Shown here: positions 16,737-23,031 of the stretch, piece by piece
How positions within the stretch are numbered: position 1 is the stretch's first letter
How the letters are laid out: every line of letters starts with the position of its first letter
DNA from: Candidatus Gastranaerophilales bacterium
GTDB lineage: Bacteria; Cyanobacteriota; Vampirovibrionia; Gastranaerophilales; Gastranaerophilaceae
Reading direction: 5' to 3'
Length of the DNA stretch: 36,727 nt
Assembly (NCBI GenBank): GCA_017560095.1
Contig: JAFYOU010000030.1
Span: 1-36,727, forward strand
The notes under the pieces: generated by a model
What the model saw: only the letters and a program-made list of their open reading frames with translations
Database searches by the model: none
What the model was told of the DNA's origin: nothing
Position numbers and translations under genes: made by a program

Positions 16737-19700
16737 ATGACTACATTAACTCCTGAAAGCTCAAAAAAGAAAAAACACGTTGAGTTTATCAATAAGGTAA
16801 TGAATAAAAAAGCTCTTAACCAACTATTATCTCAAGTTTATCTTGAATGGGGCGGAGCAAAAACTGCTGAACTTGCAAATAACCTTAAAAACTTAGGTTA
16901 TAGATATGCAACTAAATCAGGTACAACAATTTCAATCCATGACTTAGAAGTACCAAAAGCAAAAGCTGAATTGCTTCAAGAAGCTCAAGATGAAATTGAA
17001 CGTTCAACTCGCCGTTATTTAAAAGGTGAAATCACAGAAGTTGAAAGATATACAAAAGTTATTGACACTTGGTCTGAAACCACAGCTAAATTAACAGAAA
17101 AAGTAGTTGAAGGCTTTAATAGATTAAACCCAGTTTATATGATGGCATTCTCAGGTGCGAGAGGTAACTTATCACAAGTATCACAGTTAGTTGGTATGCG
17201 TGGCTTGATGGCAGACGCACAAGGTCAAATCATCGACTTGCCTATTAAATCAAACTTTAAAGAAGGTCTATCTTGTACAGAATACGTTATTTCATCATAC
17301 GGTGCAAGAAAAGGCCTTGTAGATACTGCATTGAAAACAGCTGACTCAGGTTACCTAACAAGACGTCTTGTTGACGTTGCTCAAGACGTAATCATCAGAG
17401 ATGAAGATTGTCATACCGAAAAATTCATCAACTTAACAGCAATTACAGATGGCGAAGATGTAATCGTTGCTCTAGAAGATAGACTTTTAGGAAGAACAAT
17501 TGCTCAAGATGTACTTGATAATGATGGCAATATATTGGTTGCTAAAAATACAACAGTAGATAGAGATGATTTAGAAAAAATCAAATCCGTTAATTTAAAA
17601 GAAATTAAAGTTAGATCAACTCTAACTTGTGAATTAGAATACGGCATCTGCCAAAAGTGTTATGGTTGGTCAATGACAACTCAAAGACCAGTTGATATAG
17701 GTGAAGCAATCGGCATCATTGCTGCTCAATCAATCGGTGAACCTGGTACACAATTAACAATGAGAACATTCCACACAGGTGGTGTATTCAAAGGTTCAGG
17801 TGTTACTCGTCAAGCAAAAACTACAATTGACGGTACAGTTAACACTGAAGTTAAAACACGTGAACAAAGAACGCGTCACGGGGATATTGTACAAATCGCT
17901 ATCAAAGAAGCAGATGTTGAAATTAAAGGCAAAAAAGACTCAGAAAAAATCCATATTCCAATGGGTGCAAGAGTTCTTGTTAAAAAAGGTGATGAAGTTG
18001 CAGCAGGCGCTGCGATTGCTGAATTTGACCCCGCTTCAAAAGGCGAAGGTTCTCGTTTAACCGAAAAAGCACTTAAAGATATTACTTCCGACATCAGTGG
18101 TGAAGTTGTATTTGTGGATTTCGTTGCAGATGAAAGAAAAGATAGACAAGGCAACATCTCAAGAATTGCCAACAAACAAGGTATCGTTTGGGTTCTTGGT
18201 GGAGATGTTTACGCACTTCCAGCTGGTTCTAAAGTCCTAGTTGAAGACGGTCAAAAAATTAAAAAAGGCGAAAAATTAGCTGAGACTTTAATTGTATCAG
18301 AACACGGTGGCGAAGTTAGAGTTAACGACAACCTTGTTGTTGAAGAAGTTAAATTCGAAGGTAAAAAAATCAAAAAAATCATTTCTGGCAAAGAGCTTAC
18401 AATTGTTATCGCTTCAATCCAAGCACAAAACGCCGTATTTGAGCAAACCAAAAAAGAACAAATTTGGACAGTTCCAGAAAGTGGAGAGAAATATATCGTT
18501 AAAGCTCCAATTGATACAACTGTTGAAAATGGTATGATCATTGCAGAGCTTATTGATGATACCAATAAAGTTGAATCTTCTGGCGAAATCAGATATAACG
18601 GACTTGAAGTTGACGAAAACCAAGTTGTAATCAATCCAGGTCAATTAGTATTCATACCTGAAGAAATTCATCAAATTTCAAAAGATGCATCTTTAAAACT
18701 TGTTGAATCAGGAACCTATGTTGAAGCTGGTACAGAAGTCATCAAAGACATCTATACACATATTGCTGGTATCGTTGAAATTAAAGAATTTAACGACATT
18801 ATTCATGAAATCGTTGTTCGTCCTGGTGAATTGCACACTCTTGAATCAATCAATGATTTAAAAGTTGGTGAAGGCGAAGTAATTAAAGCAGGTACAGTTG
18901 TAGCTGGAAAAATCAAAGCTAAAGTTGATTCTATCGTAACAATTGTTGAAAACGAAACAGATATGATGGAGGAACTTGATGATCTTGATGAAGAATTAAC
19001 CGTTGATTCTATAGATGAAGAAGATTCGCTAGAAGGCAAGCCTATTCAAATCTTAATCAGGCCAATTCAAGCATTCGACATTGAACAAAAAGATGTTTCT
19101 ATTAAATTCAATGCAACTGACGAAGCAATTGAGCTTCTTCCAATCACACAAGTACAATTTAAAGATGGCGCTAGAGTAAGAAACCTAGATGGCGCAGTTC
19201 TTACAAGAACATCTTTAGTATTATCAATGTCAGGCTATATCTCACACTTAAAAGGTATGGTTGAGCTTGATAGCAAAGGTGATTTAAAAATCGTTGTTTT
19301 AGAAACATTAATTGTAAGAAGAGAACAAGAAGATGGTTCAAGAGGACTTTCTTCAACCCAAACAGAACTATTAGTTGAAAATGGTCAAGTAATTGAACCA
19401 AAAACTCCTGTTACTAAAACTCAAGTTTTAGCAGTTAATGATTCTATTGCTTCAATTAATTCTAAAGATTCAGAACTAAGAAGATTGTTACTAGTTTCTG
19501 ATAATTACGAAGAAACAATCGAAGTTACAGCAAAACCAACCGTTAAAGTAGGTCAATATGTAACAATTGATCAAGCAATATCTGAAAAAGAAACAACTCC
19601 ATTCTCTGGTAAAGTTGTTAAAGCTGATTCAAAAGCAGTTGTTATAAGAGTTGGTCGTCCTCACTTGATTTCTCCTGGGGCAATGCTTCAAGTTGATAAC

Positions 19701-20591
19701 TCAGCATTAATCCTTAGAGGTGACTTACTTGCAACATTAGTATTCGAAAGACAAAAAACAGGGGATATCGTCCAAGGTCTTCCTCGTGTTGAAGAACTTT
19801 TAGAAGCTAGAAAACCAAAGGATTCAGCAATTGCTGCCGAAGAAGACGGTGTAGCTATAATTGAATATGAAGATGACGCTCCTCGTTTATATATTGAAAA
19901 CGAAAACGGCAGAACAGAAATCAAATATCCAATCGAAGCTACTGTAATTGTAAATAACAAACAACAAATCAAAAAAGGCGATGCATTAACTTCTGGCCCA
20001 ATGAATCCACATGATGTTATCAGATTGAGAGGTGCCAATGCAGCTCAGCAATATCTTGTAGATGAAGTACAAAGAGTATATCGTTCTCAAGGCGTTGAAA
20101 TTTCCGATAAACACGTTGAAGTTATTGTTCGTCAAATGATTAAAAAAGTTAAAGTAGTTGATTCAGGTACTACAAAATTGTTACCTGGTGAACTAGTTGA
20201 ACTTAAAGTAATTGAATCAGAAAACGCAATTGCACGCGAAAATAATGGTCAAGAAGCAACATACGAAGCGTTATTGCTTGGTATTACAAAAGCTTCATTG
20301 AACACTGAATCATTTATTTCAGCTGCTTCATTCCAAGAAACAACAAGAATCTTAACTGAAGCCGCTGTAGAAGGCAAAAAAGACTTATTAAGAGGTCTTA
20401 AAGAAAATGTAATTATCGGTCGTTTAATTCCTGCTGGTACCGGTTATTACCACCTAATAAATGCTTCAGAAGAAAAAGAGAAAGAAGCAATGAAACGCGC
20501 AGCTCAAAAACATCAAGCAAGAAAACCGTCTGCAATTTTAGAAGAAATTGAAGGTATGTTTGGTGTAGTTGATCCTGATATGCAATTTTAA
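16737..20591 (+). CDS. rpoC2: RNA polymerase beta-prime subunit (C-terminal half) with giant trigger-loop insertion
   Basis: The 1284-aa protein is the cyanobacterial-type C-terminal half of beta-prime. It opens with a short Lys-rich tail, then MMAFSGARGNLSQVSQLVGMRGLMADAQG and a four-Cys zinc site (around CHTEKF and CELEYGICQKC). The trigger-loop helix AAQSIGEPGTQLTMRTFHTGG starts at residue 329. About 640 residues then intervene before the trigger loop resumes at GDIVQGLPRVEELLEARKPKDSAI (about 1006). This insertion consists of repeated beta-rich modules with recurring KKGDEVAAG / KKGEKL / VEAGTEV-type turns, the sandwich-barrel hybrid motifs known for cyanobacterial SI3. The C-terminus (HDVIRLRGANAAQQYL to LKENVIIGRLIPAGTGY) is canonical. 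SD AGAGG lies 10 nt before ATG. Confidence 0.97.
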   Translation: MTTLTPESSKKKKHVEFINKVMNKKALNQLLSQVYLEWGGAKTAELANNLKNLGYRYATKSGTTISIHDLEVPKAKAELLQEAQDEIERSTRRYLKGEITEVERYTKVIDTWSETTAKLTEKVVEGFNRLNPVYMMAFSGARGNLSQVSQLVGMRGLMADAQGQIIDLPIKSNFKEGLSCTEYVISSYGARKGLVDTALKTADSGYLTRRLVDVAQDVIIRDEDCHTEKFINLTAITDGEDVIVALEDRLLGRTIAQDVLDNDGNILVAKNTTVDRDDLEKIKSVNLKEIKVRSTLTCELEYGICQKCYGWSMTTQRPVDIGEAIGIIAAQSIGEPGTQLTMRTFHTGGVFKGSGVTRQAKTTIDGTVNTEVKTREQRTRHGDIVQIAIKEADVEIKGKKDSEKIHIPMGARVLVKKGDEVAAGAAIAEFDPASKGEGSRLTEKALKDITSDISGEVVFVDFVADERKDRQGNISRIANKQGIVWVLGGDVYALPAGSKVLVEDGQKIKKGEKLAETLIVSEHGGEVRVNDNLVVEEVKFEGKKIKKIISGKELTIVIASIQAQNAVFEQTKKEQIWTVPESGEKYIVKAPIDTTVENGMIIAELIDDTNKVESSGEIRYNGLEVDENQVVINPGQLVFIPEEIHQISKDASLKLVESGTYVEAGTEVIKDIYTHIAGIVEIKEFNDIIHEIVVRPGELHTLESINDLKVGEGEVIKAGTVVAGKIKAKVDSIVTIVENETDMMEELDDLDEELTVDSIDEEDSLEGKPIQILIRPIQAFDIEQKDVSIKFNATDEAIELLPITQVQFKDGARVRNLDGAVLTRTSLVLSMSGYISHLKGMVELDSKGDLKIVVLETLIVRREQEDGSRGLSSTQTELLVENGQVIEPKTPVTKTQVLAVNDSIASINSKDSELRRLLLVSDNYEETIEVTAKPTVKVGQYVTIDQAISEKETTPFSGKVVKADSKAVVIRVGRPHLISPGAMLQVDNSALILRGDLLATLVFERQKTGDIVQGLPRVEELLEARKPKDSAIAAEEDGVAIIEYEDDAPRLYIENENGRTEIKYPIEATVIVNNKQQIKKGDALTSGPMNPHDVIRLRGANAAQQYLVDEVQRVYRSQGVEISDKHVEVIVRQMIKKVKVVDSGTTKLLPGELVELKVIESENAIARENNGQEATYEALLLGITKASLNTESFISAASFQETTRILTEAAVEGKKDLLRGLKENVIIGRLIPAGTGYYHLINASEEKEKEAMKRAAQKHQARKPSAILEEIEGMFGVVDPDMQF

Positions 20592-20600
20592 TAATTCGTC

Positions 20601-20632
20601 AAAAACGCAAGTCTAATAAGACTTGCGTTTTT
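20601..20632 (+). terminator. terminator of the rpoBC operon
   Basis: AAAAACGCAAGTCT (20601-20614) and AGACTTGCGTTTTT (20619-20632) form a perfect 14-bp stem with an AATA loop, 9 nt after the rpoC2 stop. Confidence 0.93.
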
Positions 20633-20657
20633 GAACAGATATTATTTTTTCAATAAC

Positions 20658-20715
20658 AAAGGAGGTTTATTAAGTGATATAAAAGTTTAGAATATTTTTA
20701 TATCACTTAATTTTT
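20658..20715 (+). promoter_or_regulatory. SD - 15-bp hairpin - ATG arrangement of mutS
   Basis: A near-perfect SD, AAAGGAGGT (20658-20666), is separated from the mutS ATG (20716) by 50 nt. These contain a perfect 15-bp inverted repeat, TTAAGTGATATAAAA (20670-20684) and TTTTATATCACTTAA (20696-20710), with an 11-nt loop. If the hairpin forms, SD and ATG are brought to about 9 nt apart, the optimal spacing. A two-codon ORF GTG-ATA-TAA (20674-20682) stands 8 nt after GGAGG in the unfolded form. Confidence 0.55.
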
Positions 20716-23031
20716 ATGTTACTAGATTCTAATAATTTTGATAGAGCATTTCTTGCAGACAATAAATACTTGAAAAATTATTTCACCATAAAAGACAAAC
20801 ATAACGATTGCATTGTCTTATTTCAACTTGGAACATTTTTAGAAGCATATTTTCAAGATGCAAAAATATTGTCAAAATTAAGTGGTATGACACTTACATC
20901 AAGAAACCTATGCAAGTCAACAAAAGAAATTGCATTGTGTGGCTTTCATATAAAACATCAAACAGCATATATCAAGCTATTATTAGACAACAACTATAAA
21001 GTTTGTGTTTGTGAAGAACACAAAGACGAAAACAATGAAATCACAAGAAAAGTAAAAAGAACATATACCCAAGGAACAATTATAGAAAATGAATTTTTAG
21101 AATCTGCAGAAAATAATTACATAGCCGCTATTTGTGCATTAAACAACCAAATGAGTTTTTCATACGCTGATGTTTCAACAGGACAATTCTATAAAACAAA
21201 CGGATCCTTTGAAGAAATAAAATTAGAAATAGAAAAAATAGAACCGAATGAAATTTTAATAATCAAAAACCAAAAAGATCTATTTCAAGAATTAATAAAA
21301 AAATATAATATAACCTTACTAGAAGAAACTTTTTACAGCAAAAAAAGCGAAGAAATTATTGAAAAATATTGTGAATACACTCAAAAAAGTTATTGTGCAA
21401 AATTGAGCAAAATTATTGAATATGACGTAAAAAATTATTTAATAATGGATGAAACAACAAGAAAAAATCTCGAACTTACAAGAACCAAAATGTTTTTAAA
21501 GAAAAAAGGTAGCTTGCTTTGGTTTTTAAAAAATACAAAAACGCCGATGGGCGCACGTTTATTAAAAAAATATTTAAGCGAACCACTATTGAGTATTGAA
21601 AAAATAAAAGAAAGACAAAATGCCGTAGAACAATTAATAAAAAATAAAAAACTTTTAAAAAAAATAGAAACAACACTCGAAGATTTTTGCGATTTGTCAA
21701 GAATTTGTACCAAAATTTCCAACTCAACAATACTACCAAAAGATTTATATAGAATTTCACAAAATTCATCTTCACTTAAAGAATTAGATAAATTATCAAA
21801 AAAAGTTGATTTGAATTATTTATCTATAAATTCAAAAAAACTAGCTTTTATGATGGATTTAACAGAAGAAATAAAAAAATCAATTGAAAAAGAAGCCCCC
21901 GACGAAATCACAAAAGGGAAAATAATAAAAACCGGATATAACGCAGCCCTAGATTATTTAAAAAACAATCTAAAAGATTTCAAAAAAAAGCTAAATCAAT
22001 ACGAAAACAGAGAAAAAGAAAGGCTTGAGATAAACAATCTCAAAATTAGCTATTCAAAAGTTATTGGGTACTATATTGAAATACCAAATTCTAAGGTGCA
22101 AAAAGTTTCAAATGAATATTTCAAAAAACAAGGTTTGCAAAACTGTTCTAGATTTGGCACTGAAAAATTAAGCGTTTTAGAACAAGAAATATTTAATCTC
22201 GAATACAAGATAAACGAATTAGAATACAGTATATATTGCGATATTAGAAACAAAGCAAAAAACTTTGTTGAAGCAATTAGGGAACTAGCTCTTGAAATTG
22301 CAAAAATAGATATTATTGCTTCATTTGCAAAATGTGCCATTGTTAATAATTTTGTTAAACCAAATTTCAATACAAAAGAAATTAAAATAATAAACGGCTA
22401 CCATCCAAGCCTAATTAAACTGAAAAATGAAATCATAAAAAATGATACAGAAATCAAAAATGGTTCAATGATGATTTTAATGGGCGCAAATATGAGTGGA
22501 AAATCAACATATTTAAAACACAATGCAATCATTTGCCTATTAGCCCAAATTGGTTCATACATACCTGCTGACTACGCAGACCTTGTCTTAATCGACAAAC
22601 TATTTTTACGTCAAGGTGCAACTGACGATATAATAAATAATAATTCAAGTTTTATGGTTGAGATGAATGACTTTAAATTTATTATAGATAACATCACAGA
22701 CTCTTCATTTGTCTTGCTTGATGAACCTGCAAAAAGCACAAACGAAAAAGAAGGTGGAGCTATTGCAAAAGCCTTTTGTGAATATTTAATTGAACACTAT
22801 AATTCAAAAATCATAATAGCTACGCACAATTTTGAATTAACAAAGCTTGAAAATGAATACCCAAAAAGAGTGTGTAACTTTGTAATTGGCGATTCACTTG
22901 AAGGATTTTCTTTGAGTGACAGAAAAATTAAAAAAGGTACAATCAAAACAAGCTTTGCAATAAATACTGCAAACCTTGCTGGATTACCAGAAGAAATAAT
23001 CAATAAAGCAAAACAATACATAATAATATAA
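20716..23031 (+). CDS. mutS: divergent MutS-family mismatch repair ATPase
   Basis: This 771-aa protein has the MutS1 layout. An N-terminal mismatch-binding domain retains the Phe-x-Glu motif as F41-L42-E43 (QLGTFLEAYFQDA). The connector follows, then lever/clamp helices, and a C-terminal ABC-type ATPase. The ATPase is divergent: Walker A is GANMSGKS (590-597; usual GPNMGGKS), the middle SSFMVEMND is kept, Walker B LLDE is at 667-670, but the following signature reads PAKSTNEKEGG where typical MutS has IGRGTSTxDG. It is about 80 residues shorter than E. coli MutS and ends at the helix-turn-helix dimer region (ANLAGLPEEIINKAKQY), so the tetramerisation tail is missing. It could be the main mismatch-repair MutS of an unusual lineage or a specialised paralogue. 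Translation probably depends on the hairpin upstream. Confidence 0.85.
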   Translation: MLLDSNNFDRAFLADNKYLKNYFTIKDKHNDCIVLFQLGTFLEAYFQDAKILSKLSGMTLTSRNLCKSTKEIALCGFHIKHQTAYIKLLLDNNYKVCVCEEHKDENNEITRKVKRTYTQGTIIENEFLESAENNYIAAICALNNQMSFSYADVSTGQFYKTNGSFEEIKLEIEKIEPNEILIIKNQKDLFQELIKKYNITLLEETFYSKKSEEIIEKYCEYTQKSYCAKLSKIIEYDVKNYLIMDETTRKNLELTRTKMFLKKKGSLLWFLKNTKTPMGARLLKKYLSEPLLSIEKIKERQNAVEQLIKNKKLLKKIETTLEDFCDLSRICTKISNSTILPKDLYRISQNSSSLKELDKLSKKVDLNYLSINSKKLAFMMDLTEEIKKSIEKEAPDEITKGKIIKTGYNAALDYLKNNLKDFKKKLNQYENREKERLEINNLKISYSKVIGYYIEIPNSKVQKVSNEYFKKQGLQNCSRFGTEKLSVLEQEIFNLEYKINELEYSIYCDIRNKAKNFVEAIRELALEIAKIDIIASFAKCAIVNNFVKPNFNTKEIKIINGYHPSLIKLKNEIIKNDTEIKNGSMMILMGANMSGKSTYLKHNAIICLLAQIGSYIPADYADLVLIDKLFLRQGATDDIINNNSSFMVEMNDFKFIIDNITDSSFVLLDEPAKSTNEKEGGAIAKAFCEYLIEHYNSKIIIATHNFELTKLENEYPKRVCNFVIGDSLEGFSLSDRKIKKGTIKTSFAINTANLAGLPEEIINKAKQYIII

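Follow-up and report, generated by a model that had tools for sequence, protein, structure and literature searches.

A Shine-Dalgarno sequence and a predicted hairpin ahead of mutS in a Gastranaerophilales bacterium: a possible accommodated ribosome binding site

Hairpin-bridged, or split, ribosome binding sites (RBSs), in which an RNA structure shortens the distance between the Shine-Dalgarno (SD) sequence and the start codon, were previously described for the phage T4 genes 25 and 38. According to the available part of the source, the structure cuts the SD-AUG spacing from 22 to 5 nt in gene 38 and from 27 to 11 nt in gene 25, and the gene 25 structure is kept in close T-even relatives and absent from distant ones (PMC3014915). 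The mutS leader analyzed in this study resembles that of gene 25 in two respects: a far SD is predicted to be brought near the AUG by a hairpin (from 50 to 7 nt), and the arrangement is limited to near or scattered relatives. The folded-spacing reading of the original prediction and its parallel with gene 25 are well founded on the spacing cuts given in that part of the source. In contrast to gene 25, the present case concerns a bacterial chromosomal housekeeping gene with an 18-pair, A+U-rich stem spanning 43 nt, known here from sequence, and the sister genome G012 folds to 17 nt only. Gene 38 shares the cut in SD-AUG spacing by an intervening structure; however, as far as the same part of the source goes, it is a phage gene with a shorter spacer and was experimentally tested, whereas the mutS case is a prediction. 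A search covering part of the literature revealed no bacterial chromosomal split RBS in the titles or abstracts among the matches listed.

This study used a window of 36,727 nucleotides, the whole stretch of DNA that was analyzed, from a 2.07-Mb genome of Candidatus Gastranaerophilales (labelled G000). The leader is ordered as follows: the end of rpoC2 at 20591, a terminator-like hairpin, the SD, the 18-pair hairpin, and the mutS ATG (Table 1). The rpoC2 product matched TIGR02388 (rpoC2_cyan) with 1240.7 bits (cut-off 467.4, E 0), and the split rpoC is consistent with Gastranaerophilales. The mutS product scored 666.5 bits against the NF003810 MutS equivalog, passing the cut-off of 480, and 586.2 bits against TIGR01070 (mutS1), under the cut-off of 641.7. 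Searches of 30 relatives from outside the genus yielded best-scoring matches of no more than 41% identity, mostly in longer open frames of approximately 860 aa. Together with the TIGR01070 score, these observations suggest that the genus has a divergent short MutS. Proteins of this type were encoded in 29 of 29 genus genomes, with rpoC2 upstream of mutS at all 29 loci (the gap was 402 nt in G008), and relatives' proteins beginning at the same place support the mutS ATG at 20716. No phase-variable homopolymers were found in mutS, the longest runs being 8, the same as in the rest of the window. At gathering scores, Rfam returned a single match in the whole window, a tRNA, and hence no known RNA family for the leader.

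Table 1. Features of the rpoC2-mutS region (positions in the window)
Feature	Position	Strand	Description	Basis
rpoC2	16737..20591	+	RNA polymerase beta'' subunit; split rpoC, cyanobacterial type	ORF and profile match
Terminator-like hairpin after rpoC2	20599..20634	+	16-bp perfect stem	Perfect inverted repeat
Possible -10, TATTAT	20640..20645	+	Transcript would begin at ~20652, SD included	4.2 bits
Shine-Dalgarno AAAGGAGGT	20658..20666	+		Sequence; duplex energy with typical 16S 3' end
18-pair A+U-rich hairpin, SD-to-start	20669..20711	+	Loop 20687-20693	Predicted fold, inverted repeat
Two-codon ORF, GTG-ATA-TAA	20674..20682	+	In hairpin 5' arm, in frame with mutS	Sequence
Rival -10, TGA-TATAAA	20678..20683	+	RNA would start at ~20690, in the loop	3.5 bits
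mutS	20716..23031	+	Mismatch repair protein, 771 aa	Profile search

The original prediction described the best SD of the window, lying 50 nt from the mutS ATG behind a 15-bp perfect stem that would reduce the spacing to about 9 nt. The position of the SD and the gap proved correct (GGAGG to ATG, 50 nt), and 43 of the 49 nt between AAAGGAGGT and the ATG lie inside the hairpin. The hairpin exists but is longer than claimed: positions 20669-20686 pair with 20694-20711 around a 7-nt loop, and the stem comprises 16 contiguous Watson-Crick pairs, one G-U pair, and one more U-A pair. It does shorten the spacing, although to 7 external nt (3 before the hairpin and 4 after it; 6 nt when counted from AAAGGAGGT). 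As for the rank of the SD, AAAGGAGG occurred only once when both strands of the window were counted, but the word was present in 54 of 100 whole-window shuffles and is by itself common by chance.

SD cores in G000 peaked at 4-9 nt before the ATG (119/141 matches at gaps of 0-13 nt, overlapping cores included). The unfolded distance of 50 nt is beyond this peak, whereas the 7 nt left by the predicted fold is within it and would thus be a functional spacing. The SD duplex was computed with the typical sequence of the 16S rRNA 3' end and yielded -13.3 kcal/mol, compared with a cost of 3.6 kcal/mol for opening the SD and AUG. In the free fold, the SD and AUG were partly paired together, which counts against an accommodated RBS. 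Of 30 genomes searched for the anti-SD TGGATCACCTCCTTT, 5 contained it, and these belong to other genera of the order; a longer anti-SD pattern was found in none of the 30, and neither search recovered the 16S tail of the present genus.

The combination of SD and hairpin at mutS is very unlikely to be a product of chance. The SD-to-ATG interval had a folding energy of -17.4 kcal/mol (z -7.3), and none of 2000 dinucleotide shuffles was as stable or equalled its stem length; for the longer stretch 20640-20760, z was -3.3 and 0 of 200 shuffles were as stable. We identified 13 perfect inverted repeats of at least 15 bp with loops of 3-12 nt in 576,727 bases (28%) of the genome. The mutS-leader repeat had the lowest G+C content of the 13 (14%, only two G-C pairs), and the other 12, at 18-36% G+C, were terminator-like when read by eye. 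A 277-kb sample contained 18 GGAGG-ATG pairs separated by 30-80 nt, and that of mutS alone had a stem of more than 8 pairs; for one other, a stem of 7 pairs would reduce the spacing to 10 nt, which counts against the accommodated RBS. When 52 looser SD-ATG pairs from 577 kb (28% of the genome) were considered, stems exceeding 9 pairs were those of the mutS site (three rows) and one terminator-like hairpin leaving 39 nt, and no second case with such a stem at such spacing was found in that sample. Throughout the genome, the pattern AAGGAGGT-N38-60-ATG matched 15 times and its reversed control 14 times. By eye, mutS was the only hairpin case among the 15, and the idea that another strong SD heads a second split RBS was rejected. 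A broader AGGAGG search contained at most terminator-like cases (by eye) among the matches listed for G000 and G012. A mobile or repeated element was likewise rejected: apart from the query region and its palindrome, BLAST of 20648-20720 against 29 genus genomes returned weak A+T-rich matches, the best with E 3.7e-4. Of 76 fetched loci, 4 matched the motif AAGTGnTATAA...CACTT, all of them the G000 or G012 site.

The mutS leaders of the relatives were then compared, the starts of eight loci being picked by hand. GGAGG was present in 4 of 29 leaders (G000, G012, G025, and G023), versus 0.38 expected from base composition, at 50, 53, 50, and 70 nt from the ATG, respectively; these leaders form two related pairs and may therefore represent two events. 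On the mutS tree, G012 is the sister of G000, and G003 plus G009 form the sister clade of that pair. G012 keeps GGAGG and the AAGTG...CACTT stem base, with 15 pairs (one wobble), a mismatch, and a bulge. This retention, despite the near saturation of the mutS genes of G000 and G012 (66 of 131 fourfold sites identical; 40% expected at saturation), counts for a split RBS. As stable a fold as that of the G012 interval was reached by 48 of 2000 shuffles; its longest unbroken stem, 7 pairs, was ordinary (1237/2000), and 17 nt remained outside the fold, beyond the 4-9 nt mode of the genome. The check on relatives put forward in the original prediction thus gave a divided outcome: the SD and pairing are kept in G012, but the complementarity is weaker there, and G003 and G009 have short leaders with neither an SD nor a comparable hairpin (in the last 50 nt, 35 and 184 of 300 shuffles by energy and 23 and 195 of 300 by stem length).

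Three further leaders were classed as long. G025 combines GGAGG with an unrelated 9-bp stem (31/2000 shuffles by energy, 279/2000 by stem length), and its fold leaves 16 nt, outside the SD-spacing mode of the genome. G016 has a 12-pair stem with a weak SD (30/2000 by stem length, 320/2000 by energy), and G023 showed no significant hairpin (729/2000). The G016 leader also contains an 11-12 bp perfect inverted repeat enclosing TATAAT and a 7-codon ATG ORF (ORF read by eye) that begins at the stem edge. In the G023 leader, a short TTG-start ORF follows GGAGG, and the end of an ORF of 20 codons overlaps the mutS ATG (by eye); this arrangement suggests translational coupling. For the 24 loci beyond the five long-leader cases (G000, G012, G025, G016, and G023), shuffle controls used a fixed 50 nt before the ATG. 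A stable fold before the ATG, equalled by no more than 4 of 300 shuffles, was observed at 11 of these 24 loci, which counts against the hairpin as a special signal. In many of the 11, the 50-nt region takes in part of the rpoC2 terminator, so this control is not clean, but in G010 the fold is a separate hairpin in an SD-less leader. Mapped on the mutS tree, the long-leader label required three changes, two of them forced by well-supported branches, and homologous hairpin sequences numbered two only (G000 and G012). Further relatives of the locus were absent from the viral contigs searched; one was found in genome contigs, apparently G012's own. Judged from these leaders, the SD and hairpin arrangement is young or patchy in the genus. 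An accidental inverted repeat beside an SD relic in an A+T-rich spacer would agree with most of the genus being without the arrangement and with folded spacings in G012 and G025 that are not optimal, but this explanation is very unlikely in view of the 0/2000 shuffles and the partial retention in G012 despite near saturation.

The main rival to an accommodated RBS is a promoter inside the repeat. In this explanation, the hairpin region is the mutS promoter, an extended -10 element (TGnTATAAW) occupies the 5' arm, and RNA starting in the loop has a 26-nt SD-less leader that excludes the SD; the SD would be unused, and the inverted repeat would be an operator or incidental. TGnTATAAT is the promoter type of this genome, as seen in 39 leaderless-type promoters (T at -3 in 24, G at -2 in 16, no clear -35). 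G012 has a perfect TGCTATAAT, whose TGC-TATAAT, homologous to the G000 element, scored 9.4 bits, a value reached by 4 of 1000 shuffles; the -10 matrix combined E. coli-like frequencies with flanks from the leaderless-type promoters of this genome. Moreover, the block AAGTGnTATAA shared by G000 and G012 fits the extended -10, the A-to-C change between the two falls at its free n and breaks a pair, and the G025 and G016 hairpins also contain TATAAT. The rival also agrees with the 24 of 29 mutS leaders that have no SD match by the criterion applied, which indicate that most of the genus starts mutS without an SD. Nevertheless, the hexamer in G000 itself is TATAAA and scores below the upstream TATTAT, and a promoter leaves unexplained why four leaders have GGAGG, why CACTT is conserved in the 3' arm, why G000 and G012 each have a single wobble pair, and why the fold fits at 7 nt. 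TATTAT is the best -10 of the G000 leader but is not significant (754 of 1000 shuffles reach 4.2 bits), and -10 scoring of this leader revealed no convincing promoter upstream of the SD. We consider a promoter inside the repeat unlikely, though it is the strongest competitor. The two explanations could also hold together: one mutS RNA could be short and SD-less, while another, longer or produced by read-through, uses the SD.

A different role for the hairpin, as an attenuator or RNA-stability element, was also evaluated: the stem and UUUU would slow or end transcription or protect the 5' end, and the SD would be a ribosome standby site. TTTT directly follows the stem, and the SD-less G010 leader has its own hairpin near the start. 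However, the stem, with its low G+C content and A-U base, is not the GC-rich stem plus U run of an intrinsic terminator and is unlike the 12 other long inverted repeats. A consensus terminator scan of 20000-21500 called 0 sites, although it also missed the rpoC2 terminator-like hairpin, in which the T run lies inside the stem and to which comparable hairpins were read by eye 3' of rpoC2 in relatives. The exact folded spacing would also be left unexplained, and an attenuator or stability element therefore appears improbable.

The original prediction correctly placed the GTG-ATA-TAA ORF at 8 nt from the SD (8 nt after GGAGG, 7 after AAAGGAGGT). In G012 the ORF reads GTG-CTA-TAA, 9 nt after GGAGG (by eye), and lies 44 nt from mutS, versus 42 nt in G000, so that the frame is not kept (by eye); read-through or bypass joining GTG-ATA to mutS was rejected on this basis. 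The mini-ORF may be a decoy, and the same bases also serve the stem and the -10. The further claim of an on/off switch of mutation rate, whereby folded RNA leads to MutS and unfolded RNA directs ribosomes to GTG-ATA-TAA, was not supported. Retention of GTG-NTA-TAA in G012 is in its favor, but that is the only other genome in which the mini-ORF was seen (by eye), and the 18-bp stem is costly to melt (~21 kcal/mol for the whole SD-AUG span). G025 is without such an ORF, and the 20 nt next to its SD contain, by eye, no ATG, GTG, or TTG; the -10 element explains the same bases; and no ligand, thermometer, or protein signal was seen, the only Rfam match in the window being the tRNA. Beyond the mini-ORF common to G000 and G012, there is no evidence for a two-state switch, and we hold it to be very improbable.

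SD-less initiation in this genus includes a probable leaderless class. The 357 long ORFs examined (a G000 sample plus the window) were assigned their first ATG as start, as was also done for the SD-spacing peak; some genes are thereby given an incorrect start. In these ORFs, a TAnAAT hexamer preceded the ATG by 6-7 nt in 38 and an SD was present in 93. The two never occurred together (approximately 10 expected if independent), suggesting a class of leaderless mRNAs in G000. At mutS, a -10-like hexamer lay exactly 6 nt before the ATG in 11 of 29 species (G021, G001, G024, G019, G020, G022, G005, G004, G002, G017, and G026) and was the best or joint best of the leader. These 11 species thereby resemble leaderless genes in bacteria, for which the available part of one source used this type of signal and did not list Cyanobacteria among the groups concerned (PMC3160421), and their mutS mRNA is probably leaderless. 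G000 mutS differs from them in having an SD and hairpin instead: no -10 lies ~6-7 nt before its ATG, and its four best -10-like hexamers end 70, 32, 98, and 22 nt before it. On this comparison, mutS in the genus appears under SD-less, leaderless-type, and SD-plus-hairpin leaders.

The best single account of the G000 mutS leader is an accommodated RBS of the T4 gene 25 type, which we adopt tentatively, rating it somewhat below an even chance. The analysis shows the sequence, the predicted stem, the spacing, and the rarity of the arrangement; we infer that the SD is in the transcript, that the RNA folds this way in the cell, and that ribosomes make use of the fold. The mutS transcript, whether it begins at a promoter a short way 5' of the SD or reads through from rpoC2, would carry the strong SD at 50 nt from the AUG. 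Its 43-nt hairpin would fold at once, looping out the spacer and masking the GTG, which is the closest start in unfolded RNA. The mutS AUG would then lie 7 nt from a 30S subunit docked on the SD. The hairpin would thus enhance and fix the mutS start constitutively.

A broader, joint reading is that mutS in this genus switched its initiation mode repeatedly (leaderless or SD-less in most species, a hairpin-accommodated SD in at least two lineages) and that the G000 hairpin and decoy GTG-ATA-TAA make mismatch-repair output dependent on folding; we regard this as distinctly improbable. If it is true, the mutation rate could shift when the G000 leader changes in structure. A natural split RBS at a housekeeping repair gene, in a genus where relatives seem to start the same gene at the same place in an SD-less or leaderless way, would offer a compact model for studying how genes swap initiation modes.
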